Of a stretch of 57,269 bases of DNA, positions 22,251 to 25,427 are shown one piece after another. The stretch is from Sulfurovum sp. Its GTDB lineage: Bacteria > Campylobacterota > Campylobacteria > Campylobacterales > Sulfurovaceae. Each line of letters starts with the position of its first letter. Position 1 is the first letter of the stretch. Position numbers and translations under genes: made by a program. The notes below the pieces were generated by a model that had not been told where the DNA came from, ran no database searches, and saw nothing but the letters and a program-made list of their open reading frames with translations. The stretch lies in NCBI GenBank assembly GCA_030949325.1, contig JAUZSQ010000086.1, positions 1-57,269 of the forward strand, given 5' to 3'.

Positions 22251-22502
22251 CTAATCCACAACAAGCCTATAGCGTACGGATAGCGTTTTGGCTACTATAG
22301 AATGAACAGTAAAAAGTAATTTACTTTCAATCACTCCAATTTTTTTGATAAAGCGTTTTGTAGATAGATTACGAATCTGAAAAGTATCAATTGCAGAATC
22401 TTTAGTGAGATAATTATCTTGTGTAGGTTCGCACTTTATCATCCAAGGCACTAGAGTATACGTTTCCTTCCATCCTGTGATGGGTTGAGGTTGACTAGCC
22501 AT
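22251..22502 (-). CDS. Putative toxin, short PemK/MazF-like
   Basis: An 83-residue protein starting 3 bases after the stop of a ribbon-helix-helix antitoxin gene, the order expected of a type II toxin-antitoxin pair. The segment KDSAIDTFQIRNLSTKRFIKKIG resembles the C-terminal half of PemK/MazF endoribonucleases (DQIR...K/RxxKKIG). The N-terminal strand region that normally carries the first part of the fold and the RP motif is absent, so the protein may be N-terminally truncated and inactive. Alternatively it is an unrecognised compact toxin. It converges on the gene at 21953, leaving 4 bases. Confidence 0.45.
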   Translation of the reverse strand: MASQPQPITGWKETYTLVPWMIKCEPTQDNYLTKDSAIDTFQIRNLSTKRFIKKIGVIESKLLFTVHSIVAKTLSVRYRLVVD

Positions 22503-22505
22503 ATT

Positions 22506-22769
22506 TCAGACTGTTTTATAATCATATAAATCCTCCTCAAAATCAAGCCAATCTGTGAGTTCAGGATTATTTTCGTACTCTTTTTCCATCAAGTTTACAG
22601 CTTTTTGCCATTTTTCTTTCTCTTTTTGTTCGACATAGGCTTTGAGAGCTTCTTTATATATACTGGACATACTGGTTTGAAACTCATTTTTAAGGGCATT
22701 GAGTTGTTCTTTGAGTTCATAAGGGATAGTAACGGTAATCTTTTCTGCTTTTTGTGCCGAAAGTGTCAT
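22506..22769 (-). CDS. Ribbon-helix-helix antitoxin
   Basis: An 87-residue protein. Residues 9-50 form a ribbon-helix-helix DNA-binding domain (KITVTIPYELKEQLNALKNE) and residues 50-87 an acidic, probably flexible tail (ELTDWLDFEEDLYDY) suited to bind a toxin. The start ATG follows AAGGAGAAT. The promoter upstream is a perfect TTGACA-17-TATAAT with an inverted repeat over the -10 box, as expected for autoregulation. The downstream partner is the 83-residue protein at 22251. Confidence 0.7.
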   Translation of the reverse strand: MTLSAQKAEKITVTIPYELKEQLNALKNEFQTSMSSIYKEALKAYVEQKEKEKWQKAVNLMEKEYENNPELTDWLDFEEDLYDYKTV

Positions 22770-24364: not shown

Positions 24365-24390
24365 GTAGGGGTAGAGCCATGTCTCTACCC
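24365..24390. repeat. REP-like hairpin, copy c
   Basis: GGGTAGAG (24369-24376) and CTCTACCC (24383-24390) form a perfect 8-bp stem with loop CCATGT, headed by GTAG. It is related by sequence and structure to copy d in inverted orientation 41 bases downstream. Confidence 0.65.
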
Positions 24391-24431
24391 TTTGGGTGTA
24401 TTGTGGGTATTTGGATTTTATCGCATATCAA

Positions 24432-24457
24432 GGGCAGACACATGGGTCTGCCCCTAC
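24432..24457. repeat. REP-like hairpin, copy d (inverted)
   Basis: GGGCAGAC (24432-24439) and GTCTGCCC (24446-24453) form a perfect 8-bp stem with loop ACATGG, ending in CTAC. Read on the opposite strand it is GTAGGGGCAGAC.., matching copy c except at two base pairs that both changed in a compensating way. Copies c and d together make a REPIN-like inverted doublet. Confidence 0.65.
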
Positions 24458-24488
24458 GGAATTTTGAATGATTTTAGATTTACTATGA

Positions 24489-24494
24489 TATAAT
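24489..24494 (+). promoter_or_regulatory. -10 box for the candidate antisense RNA
   Basis: TATAAT on the plus strand, about 10 bases before the structured segment that begins near 24501. It would drive an RNA antisense to the small hydrophobic ORF at 24540-24602. Confidence 0.45.
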
Positions 24495-24500
24495 ACAGCC

Positions 24501-24640
24501 AGTTGGGACAGGAAGAGAGTTGAAGCTCTCTTCAAGTTTTTAATATAATCGTTCTGTTAGTAATAGCAGAATGACCATAACAATTAAAATGCGTGCTAGC
24601 ATTGTTACTCCTTTATTAAAGGCTAACCCTGTCCCTACCT
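24501..24640 (+). ncRNA. Candidate Sib-like antisense RNA
   Basis: A plus-strand transcript from the TATAAT at 24489 would run opposite the whole small toxin-like ORF and its ribosome-binding site. It can fold into a multibranch structure closed by GGGACAGG (24505-24512) with CCTGTCCC (24628-24635). Inside are hairpins GAAGAGAG/CTCTCTTC (24512-24533), TTCTG/CAGAA (near 24552-24571) and CCTTT/AAAGG (24610-24622). The layout, a 5' hairpin followed by antisense to a 20-residue hydrophobic peptide, resembles E. coli Sib RNAs. The 3' end is not defined. An early stop is possible because the first hairpin is followed by five T residues. Confidence 0.45.
24540..24602 (-). CDS. Ibs-like 20-residue hydrophobic peptide (candidate type I toxin)
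   Basis: ATG at 24602 opens a 20-residue peptide, MLARILIVMVILLLLTERLY, ending in TAA. AAAGGAG is spaced five bases before the ATG, an excellent ribosome-binding site, and is partly hidden in the hairpin CCTTTAATAAAGG. The pattern (short charged start, about 13 hydrophobic residues, polar end with terminal Y) is like the Ibs toxins of E. coli, which insert in the inner membrane. A minus-strand TATAAT at 24688-24693 would give an 80-base leader. The opposite strand appears to encode an antisense RNA. The ORF is too short for gene finders; the similarity is by eye. Confidence 0.5.
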   Translation of the reverse strand: MLARILIVMVILLLLTERLY

Positions 24641-24687
24641 AACACCTCGCAATGCCAATCACACACCATCGCCCAACTAGCACAGAA

Positions 24688-24693
24688 ATTATA
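24688..24693 (-). promoter_or_regulatory. -10 box for the small toxin-like mRNA
   Basis: On the minus strand GGCTATAAT contains a consensus -10 box. Transcription would start near 24681 and give a leader of about 80 bases before the ATG at 24602, containing GGGACAGG that can pair with CCTGTCCC downstream of the ORF. Confidence 0.45.
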
Positions 24694-24736: not shown

Positions 24737-25427
24737 TTAACCCTTAAAAATAGCAGACCCTACTCTCACGAGGTTTGAGCCACATTGTATGGCAAGTTTA
24801 TAATCTCCACTCATGCCCATAGAACAGATTTTTGCTCCATCTTTTTGGAGACTTTCATAGAGTTTATAGGTCTCTTCAAAGTTGTTTTGAATGATTTTTC
24901 TATGGACCGTATTCATACCGATAGTCATCAGACCTTTGAGTTGGATTTGAGGGTAGTTTTCTTTGATTTCTTGGAAGACATCGTAGGCTTGTTCTGTGGG
25001 TATGCCTGATTTGGTGAATTCTTTGGATGCATTGATTTGCAGAAGACAAGACATTTTTTGGTTTTTGCTTAGGAGTTTTTTATTGAGTTCGTCTGCGAGT
25101 TCCAAAGTGTCCAAAGAGTGCATGAGGGTAGGGCGTAGGTCTATGAGATTGTTGATTTTATTTTTTTTGGACTGAGCCTATCATGTGCCATTCTATGGGG
25201 AGGTCTTCGAGTATGCCCATGCGTTTTTTGAGTTGTTGGATTTGGTTTTCGCCAAAGGCCCTTTGCCCTAAGCTATAGAGGGTTTCGATATTGTCTATAT
25301 GGCTATATTTTGCCACGGTGACGAGTTTGACAATATGGTGTTCACTCACGGTAATGCGTGAGGCTTCTATGTTCCAGATGACTTCATCGAGGTTGGCTCT
25401 GAGTTGTTCTTTGTTTAGTATAGTCAT
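24737..25427 (-). CDS. yggS: Pyridoxal phosphate homeostasis protein (frameshifted in this sequence)
   Basis: The repaired frame encodes about 229 residues of the YggS/PLPBP family, a fold-type III PLP-binding protein without known catalysis that keeps free PLP in balance. The PLP lysine is in LVTVAKYSHID (about residue 34), and motifs GENQIQQL, WHMIGSVQKN and SMGMSGDYKLAI are present. One extra base in the T8 run (25161-25168) splits it; removing it joins GSVQK to NKINNLIDLRPTLMHSLD. It starts 2 bases after the rseP stop, so the two are co-transcribed. Confidence 0.85.

Follow-up and report, generated by a model that had tools for sequence, protein, structure and literature searches.

Organization of the locus

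The window, by which we mean the whole 57,269-nucleotide stretch of Sulfurovum DNA that was analyzed, contains a compact locus in which a short hydrophobic ORF on the minus strand is covered by a putative antisense RNA on the plus strand. The preliminary description had named a 20-residue ORF, an AAAGGAG ribosome site, a TATAAT box on each strand and two arms flanking the ORF. All of these are present and are listed in Table 1 with the further features of the locus. Two resources are cited throughout: A1, a plus-strand alignment of 48 copies, and R1, a covariance model built from 48 copies without the promoter and without any E. coli sequence; its genome counts refer to E ≤ 0.001.

Table 1. 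Features of the locus and of its neighborhood in the window
Feature	Positions	Strand	Remarks
Toxin ORF, MLARILIVMVILLLLTERLY, 20 aa, stop TAA	24602-24540	minus	Read directly from the sequence
Shine-Dalgarno site AAAGGAG of the toxin mRNA (plus strand CTCCTTT)	24614-24608	minus	Tabulated copies: GG site, with 7-10 nt between its end and the start codon; GG at this position was a requirement when copies were extracted
Helix 4, CCTTT/AAAGG hairpin over the Shine-Dalgarno region, CCTTTATTAAAGG (plus)	24610-24622		97.0% of A1 cells paired, in part owing to the scan pattern, in which CCTTT was fixed
Antitoxin -10 box TATAAT, context TATGATATAAT	24489-24494	plus	Exact box before AGTTGGG in 46/50 copies
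Toxin -10 box TATAAT	24693-24688	minus	At most one mismatch in 39/43 readable copies
Conserved body of the putative antitoxin RNA, AGTTGGG to CCTGTCCC	24501-24635	plus	Alignment A1 (48 copies), model R1; putative start ~24500
AGTTGGG box, presumed antitoxin 5′ end	24501-24507	plus	Mean entropy 0.16 bits in A1 columns 1-11, part of the box being demanded at copy extraction
Closing stem, left arm GGGACAGG	24505-24512	plus	98.3% of cells paired in R1-found copies not selected by motif
Closing stem, right arm CCTGTCCC	24628-24635	plus	GTCCC in 45/46 distinct R1-found rows
Helix 2, 5′ hairpin, terminator-like (followed by AAGTTTTTAA)	24512-24533	plus	Both sides change in 6/8 pairs, A1 and A2
Helix 3, hairpin within the ORF region	24548-24575		Both sides change in 7/10 pairs
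Toxin codons 2-5, most variable stretch	24588-24599	minus	Mean entropy 1.49 bits, A1 columns 94-106
Toxin mRNA 5′ leader, putative start	24603-24680	minus	Between-copy likeness on the toxin side: median 61 nt past the body
Leader box AGTTGGGCG	24678-24670	minus	Part of the toxin mRNA 5′ leader
Leader GCATTG	within 24603-24680	minus	Able to pair with the toxin start region (predicted start-codon pairing)
Small palindromic intergenic repeat, GGGCAGACACATGGGTCTGCCCCTACGGA type	24426-24459		Just before the antitoxin promoter
Second palindrome, GTAGGGGTAGAGCCATGTCTCTACCC	24365-24392		Of similar make
PemK/MazF-like protein	22251-22502	minus	Part of a type II toxin-antitoxin-like pair, 22251-22769
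Weakly CcdA-like partner	22506-22769	minus	Ahead of the PemK/MazF-like gene; under the Pfam cut-off
Alanine-racemase-N-domain gene	24737-25427	minus	Beside the element; seemingly two frames; T-run ~25160

The preliminary description had proposed that both RNAs be folded, and stretches of 141-146 nt indeed beat dinucleotide shuffles on either strand (z -5.5 on the minus and -5.7 on the plus strand; 0 of 200 shuffles as good). Longer minus-strand stretches fold less strikingly (z -2.9 and -3.3), and a minus-strand stretch cut at its 3′ end does not rise above shuffles (z -0.9). Rfam at the gathering threshold and ARAGORN returned no match in the window, and a scan for -35/-10 consensus promoters listed neither promoter of the locus, the antitoxin -35 included.

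Near copies of the GGGCAGACACATGGGTCTGCCCCTACGGA-type palindrome lie close to other family copies as well (L051, L066 and L196). The alanine-racemase-N-domain gene, which we take to be of YggS type, appears to be split by a frameshift or an assembly error.

Copies and distribution of the family

The element, searched as a 221-bp segment, recurs at five further places in its own genome (E < 1e-6), two of them matching over most of its length: contig C108 carries a full-length copy that is 89% identical, C38 matches positions 20-161 at 74%, and C36, C77 and C110 hold parts. Among the matches listed, DNA similarity at E < 1e-10 extends to 8 of the 175 genomes of the host's family, and at E ≤ 1, where 134 genomes were counted, the remaining matches are mostly short and at chance level. 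The same proportion, 8/175, was obtained with R1, which also located the family in 31 of the 228 genomes of the family holding the Sulfurimonas copies and in 11 of 397 genomes drawn across the phylum, a patchy distribution. The largest number per genome is 12 full copies (G117), three of them in tandem on a single contig (C16).

A DNA pattern scan of named genomes retrieved 46 stretches, 44 of which belong to Sulfurovum, Sulfurimonas, Sulfurovaceae, Epsilonproteobacteria or Helicobacteraceae records; the remaining two (L073 and L087), outside those groups, are without the toxin ORF. One copy (L081) resides in the cultured named strain Sulfurimonas indica NW8N. A search of plasmids gave no match. 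Two DNA patterns retrieved 54 viral stretches (1 and 53, respectively), in which R1 found nothing above 21.2 bits (E 0.13). This score, reached by chance in 485 kb of AT-rich viral DNA, implies that single R1 scores are not decisive genome-wide.

A larger mobile unit was considered and rejected. On the toxin side, core-adjacent flank likeness has a median length of 61 nt, and 13/212 flank matches extend beyond 120 nt; on the antitoxin side the median is 40 nt, and 12/50 matches extend that far. Two Sulfurimonas-type copies (L179 and L183) both adjoin the glycyl-tRNA synthetase alpha gene, which points to one inherited position. Another copy (L069, genome G054, contig C196) is broken inside the ORF by an insert of more than 100 nt, and in L101, L107 and L071 the toxin frame has lost its stop and runs on, so that these copies are probably decaying.

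A distant relative occurs in a genome of a third family (G304; L187, positions 1430-1620), where R1 scores 40.3 bits. It encodes MQQLLLIVILLMFVITKLH and has a hairpin 3′ of the stop codon. Its leader is different: ahead of the toxin it holds a terminator-like hairpin and then seven consecutive T, which suggests another regulatory layout. In the literature searched we found no report that describes Ibs/Sib, or any other type I pair, from Sulfurovum or Sulfurimonas, and we do not claim their absence from print.

The putative toxin peptide

Two sets of copies were used to examine the ORF. The first, blind to the ORF, comprises 47 DNA-pattern matches in 44 Campylobacterota stretches, and 42 of them contain a frame of 17-21 aa behind the Shine-Dalgarno site with a hydrophobic fraction of at least 0.63. 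Of the other five, one has no frame, one contains an interrupted frame of 11 aa and three have lost the stop (33, 35 and 43 aa). The second set consists of 50 copies with both ends, for which the script required a hydrophobic frame or peptide pattern together with the end motifs; 44 of their source records had been picked by the pattern CCTTT...GGCTRACCCTGTCCC. Selection by peptide pattern, motifs and CCTTT...GGCTRACCCTGTCCC partly builds in both the openness of the frame and A1 stems 1 and 4, and the tests were rerun without those filters on the ORF-blind pattern copies and on the R1-found copies.

The coding tests were applied to the 47 of the 50 selected copies that have an 18-20 aa frame, leaving out L004, L101 and L107. 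The ratio pN/pS is 0.42, and 161 close pairs show 710, 388 and 979 substitutions at codon positions 1, 2 and 3. All 47 frames end in TAA, and 46 start with ATG and one with GTG. Openness alone is weak evidence, since one more toxin-strand frame is open in 43/47 copies and one antisense frame in 38/47. At the level of the peptide, Lys or Arg occupies position -3 in 47/47, and among the 45 distinct peptides tabulated 42 end in Tyr and 3 in Phe. For six peptides submitted to the family libraries, Pfam returned no Ibs match, with one unrelated 9-bit match for one of the six, and NCBIfam returned nothing.

Two further observations concern small frames. In 17/47 copies the leader carries AAGGATGTAACA before the start, creating a start directly followed by a stop (ATGTAA) and overlapping the Shine-Dalgarno site. 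Elsewhere in the genome to which the window belongs (L119 ~1769-1834; G000, contig C78), a further candidate for a small hydrophobic ORF, VKWNKVLIILIIIICLTAKLY, is preceded by AAAGGAGG.

Predicted antitoxin RNA and promoters

On the plus strand, A1 supports four stems, namely the closing stem, the 5′ hairpin, the hairpin of the ORF region and the Shine-Dalgarno hairpin, with 93.0% of cells able to pair. Compensatory cells number 168, where shuffles give 46.5 and slid partners 16-37. Further pair types do not exceed shuffles (429/500 as high). Compensatory pairs are distributed as six in stem 2, seven in stem 3 and one in stem 4. A second alignment, A2, was obtained by running R1 on 57 DNA- and model-found loci, a subset of all matches, which gave 59 matches, 48 of them distinct, in an alignment fitted to R1. 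There, 94.4% of cells pair and 96 are compensatory, where shuffles give 21.3 and slid partners 7-19. The conservation that the preliminary description proposed to look for in relatives was thus recovered: the ORF, the stems, the Shine-Dalgarno site and the -10 boxes are kept in Sulfurovum and Sulfurimonas copies, with compensatory changes.

Cells that tell the strands apart amount, over all four stems of A1, to 68 G-U versus 58 A-C, which indicates that both RNAs may be structured. In the closing stem of the R1-found rows the excess is 10 G-U versus 1 A-C, mostly in one column and perhaps reflecting few events, and this favors the plus-strand RNA. Sequence variation in A1 is low at the 5′ seed and at ORF columns 84-93 (0.10 bits), and high at codons 2-5 and in the loop of the first hairpin (1.40 bits). 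Codons 2-5 are probably a copy-specific recognition site. In IbsC, the N-terminal residues other than V5 are described as dispensable for toxicity in the reports cited (PMC4147584, PMC8309996), and the variability of the N-terminal residues here would fit such a role.

The two putative promoters differ in how closely their -10 boxes follow TATAAT. The frequency of the exact antitoxin -10 box (Table 1) compares with 4/492 background flank windows of 22 nt. The toxin -10 box is exact in 11 of the 43 readable copies, 7 of the 50 being unreadable, and its frequency with at most one mismatch compares with 102/492 background windows. A terminator scan found one candidate, the 5′ hairpin with AAGTTTTTAA, versus 0.3 expected; it listed none after the conserved bodies, and no G+C-rich terminator was found.

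Predicted folding of the toxin mRNA

The full-length toxin mRNA was modeled from AGTTGG to CCCAACT in 43 copies, both ends being assumed. In 40/43 copies the predicted structure pairs the 5′ and 3′ ends (P > 0.5). Pairing of the start codon predominates (0.82), its partner being the leader in 26/43. With shuffled leaders the pairing of the start codon falls to 0.70, lower than the real value in 33/43. On average, the start codon is predicted to be mostly paired in each mRNA form tested.

These models refine two earlier proposals. The Shine-Dalgarno site had been described as sequestered in a hairpin; this agrees with predictions for mRNAs with a shortened leader, where its mean unpaired probability is 0.33, but not with those for the 43 full-length mRNAs, where it is mostly unpaired (0.70). 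Similarly, the fold-back of the mRNA by the flanking arms had been put forward by analogy with type I toxin messages. Closure by GGGACAGG/CCTGTCCC reaches P > 0.5 in only 3 of the 42 readable full-length mRNAs (of 43), where AGUUGGG:CCCAACU prevails instead, whereas with the leader removed it prevails in 42/43. The mRNA of the window illustrates both forms: starting at 24676 it is closed by GGGACAGG/CCTGTCCC (P 0.96), and starting at 24678-24682 this closure drops to P 0.01-0.18 with AGTTGGG/CCCAACT at P 0.80-0.98. Among single folds, the minimum-energy form contains GGGACAGG/CCTGTCCC in two and lacks it in another. We also considered whether 3′ trimming opens the ribosome site, as it does in AapA, and rejected this, since predicted accessibility hardly shifts on average.

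Proposed mode of action

We conclude that the locus is very probably a chromosomal type I toxin-antitoxin pair built on the Ibs/Sib plan. As judged from sequence comparison, the Ibs/Sib-like family to which it belongs in Campylobacterota is genuine, probably of type I, and absent from the family libraries searched. The minus strand would encode a 20 aa toxin, probably a single-helix membrane peptide, and the plus strand would produce, from a stronger-looking promoter, a structured antisense antitoxin that covers the stop codon, coding region, start codon and Shine-Dalgarno site of the toxin. By analogy with Ibs/Sib, an excess of antitoxin would pair with the weaker toxin mRNA, block ribosome entry and expose the resulting duplex to RNase III. 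In addition, the toxin mRNA may be self-inhibited, with its 5′ end paired to its 3′ end and the start codon held in a helix. When the antitoxin falls, the peptide would be made, enter the inner membrane and depolarize it. Published descriptions of the E. coli system (PMC4147584, PMC8309996) report that Sib covers the coding region and ribosome site and prevents translation, that RNase III is implicated, and that IbsC depolarizes the membrane.

A more extended reading, which is tentative and on balance doubtful, combines three proposals: that Ibs/Sib spans two phyla, that its Campylobacterota members form a network with a shared brake and a private lock, and that 5′ trimming acts as a switch. 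The brake would be the near-identical antitoxin 5′ seed AGUUGGGRCA, which matches the 3′ ends of all sister toxin mRNAs, and the lock would lie in codons 2-5 and the start region, which differ from copy to copy. The switch would exchange AGUUGGG:CCCAACU in the full mRNA for GGGACAGG:CCUGUCCC after the loss of a few 5′ nucleotides.

The narrow range reported for type I pairs is thought, according to the account cited (PMC12390103), to stem partly from search bias and from the tiny size of the toxins. The curated models searched here overlook a family of which a single genome can hold as many as 12 full copies, one that would extend the Ibs/Sib plan to sulfur-oxidizing Campylobacterota. It offers a deep second sequence set, in which the toxin residues (the core, the basic residue at -3 and the terminal Tyr) and the pairing sites can be read from variation, and S. 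indica NW8N provides a cultured host.

Relationship to Ibs/Sib and alternative explanations

The resemblance to Ibs of E. coli, suggested in the preliminary description from the peptide pattern, was examined in both directions. Rfam RF00113 (SIB_RNA) was run on twelve host-family genomes, eight carriers and four chosen without copies, and yielded 46 matches at E ≤ 10; family members, on the right strand, account for 25 of these and for 14 of the best 15. The best member scores 25.7 bits, below the gathering score of 56 bits, while the window scores 13.1 and the four non-carriers at most 16.7. In sixteen further genomes, which included seven Sulfurimonas-type carriers and that of the distant relative (G304), members make up 0/21 matches and non-members reach 20.7 bits. 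The top SIB_RNA match in the own genome (C78, L119) and the non-members L202-L205 were inspected and rejected, the parts read showing no family-like ORF at the match. With Pfam PF13956 (Ibs_toxin) the best member reaches 12.1 bits against a cut-off of 27 bits, and members are 1 of 19 weak genome matches.

In the reverse direction, R1 was applied to 4.7 kb of E. coli stretches, and the five Sib RNAs are its top five matches (25.8, 21.7, 17.2, 16.8 and 13.7 bits), compared with at most 12.9 bits in other K-12 DNA (four 50-kb blocks, 200 kb). The match begins 3 nt before the annotated start for sibA, sibB and sibC and 9 nt before it for sibD; that to sibE is partial and begins inside the annotated RNA. 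With a sequence-only profile, sibA, C, D and E each beat all 1000 shuffles and sibB beats 999. When the Ibs peptide was kept, its codons randomised and the flanks shuffled, the scores of sibA-E were reached in 3, 267, 18, 3 and 3 of 500 trials, which indicates likeness beyond the peptide in four of the five sib RNAs. A peptide profile scores best against Ibs at the natural register (31.8, compared with 12.8-20.9 for shifts of 1-3), a score that 3 of 20,000 column shuffles reach and that is helped by picking for a hydrophobic stretch. The likeness to Ibs therefore holds in the matching of the models in both directions, in a peptide score above composition shuffles and in the distance from presumed start to stop; it does not extend to the Rfam and Pfam cut-offs, nor to the Sulfurimonas-type copies searched, which SIB_RNA does not see.

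Common descent with Ibs/Sib is likely on these comparisons, and convergence possible. The latter, which we hold to be somewhat unlikely, supposes that hydrophobic peptides of about 19 aa, when covered by an antisense RNA, come to resemble one another in sequence and that this family, one of its own, reached the type I plan independently. It would account for the scores below the curated cut-offs, the blindness of SIB_RNA to the Sulfurimonas-type copies searched, the recoded Ibs sequences that reach real sib scores, the basic residue at -3 and the patchy occurrence across the phylum. Against it stand a register, strand, helix order and presumed start-to-stop distance that are all as in Ibs/Sib, models that match both ways and, for four of the five sib RNAs, a contribution of the flanks to the match. 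We do not file the family as a member of Ibs/Sib because the curated cut-offs are not reached and the C-terminus differs.

A second alternative concerns the length of the antitoxin. The plus-strand RNA might end at the T-run after the first hairpin (~24545) and pair only with the 3′ end of the toxin mRNA, a reading we regard as rather improbable. The terminator-like 5′ hairpin, the one candidate of the terminator scan, and a TTTT invariant in the 48 A1 rows speak for it. A closing stem requires an RNA that extends to 24635, however, and its A-U to G-U changes, by 10 to 1 A-C, keep pairing on the plus strand only; moreover, the Sib RNAs of E. coli, which follow a similar plan, have annotated lengths of 136-145 nt. 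The Shine-Dalgarno stem cannot be used in this argument because one of its arms was fixed by the search pattern, which makes the short form slightly more likely than it would otherwise be.

It is very improbable that the locus is a divergent form of AapA/IsoA, the type I family of Helicobacter in the same phylum: the shared phylum, a hydrophobic toxin with a basic residue near its C-terminus and mRNA 5′-3′ end pairing would agree with it as described in the reports cited (PMC6733600, PMC8309996), but AapA1 has 30 aa and ends in K29-R30, while the toxins here have 18-20 aa, K/R at -3 and a last Tyr or Phe. Hardly to be credited, finally, is a non-coding MITE-like mobile repeat with inverted ends AGTTGGG/CCCAACT and an incidental ORF, which fits the dispersed, multicopy, tandem, degenerate and interrupted copies but is disfavored by coding conservation (the pN/pS ratio and the ORF retained in the ORF-blind copies), the -10 box on each side and the compensatory changes.

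Comparison with known systems

Among known type I systems, Ldr/Rdl of E. coli is likewise multicopy and tandem and joins a small toxin to an antisense RNA; it differs, in the description available (PMC4147584), by a toxin of 35 aa and an antisense RNA of ~60 nt, and R1 listed no match in the ldrABC stretch. AapA/IsoA of H. pylori shares the Campylobacterota host, multicopy chromosomal type I loci, mRNA 5′-3′ pairing and a positive charge near the C-terminus (PMC6733600, PMC8309996, PMC10537873), and is set apart here by its published description (toxin length and C-terminus) rather than by alignment.

The closest counterpart is Ibs/Sib of E. coli. The differences lie in the phylum, in the closing stem, which here is GGGACAGG/CCTGTCCC, in the G+C-rich terminator, for which we found no equivalent, and in the C-terminus, since the basic residue at -3 occurs in 0/5 Ibs peptides of E. 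coli K-12, whose C-terminus is uncharged. According to the work cited (PMC4147584, PMC8309996), IbsC can be trimmed to 15 residues, residues 6-19 being required. The two systems have in common a hydrophobic peptide of 18-20 aa that mostly ends in Tyr, a predicted antisense RNA over the ORF and the ribosome site, a 5′ hairpin, an ORF hairpin and a closing stem, and several copies per genome, some in tandem. The distance from the presumed antitoxin start to the toxin stop is 39 nt here and 35-40 nt in E. coli Ibs/Sib.
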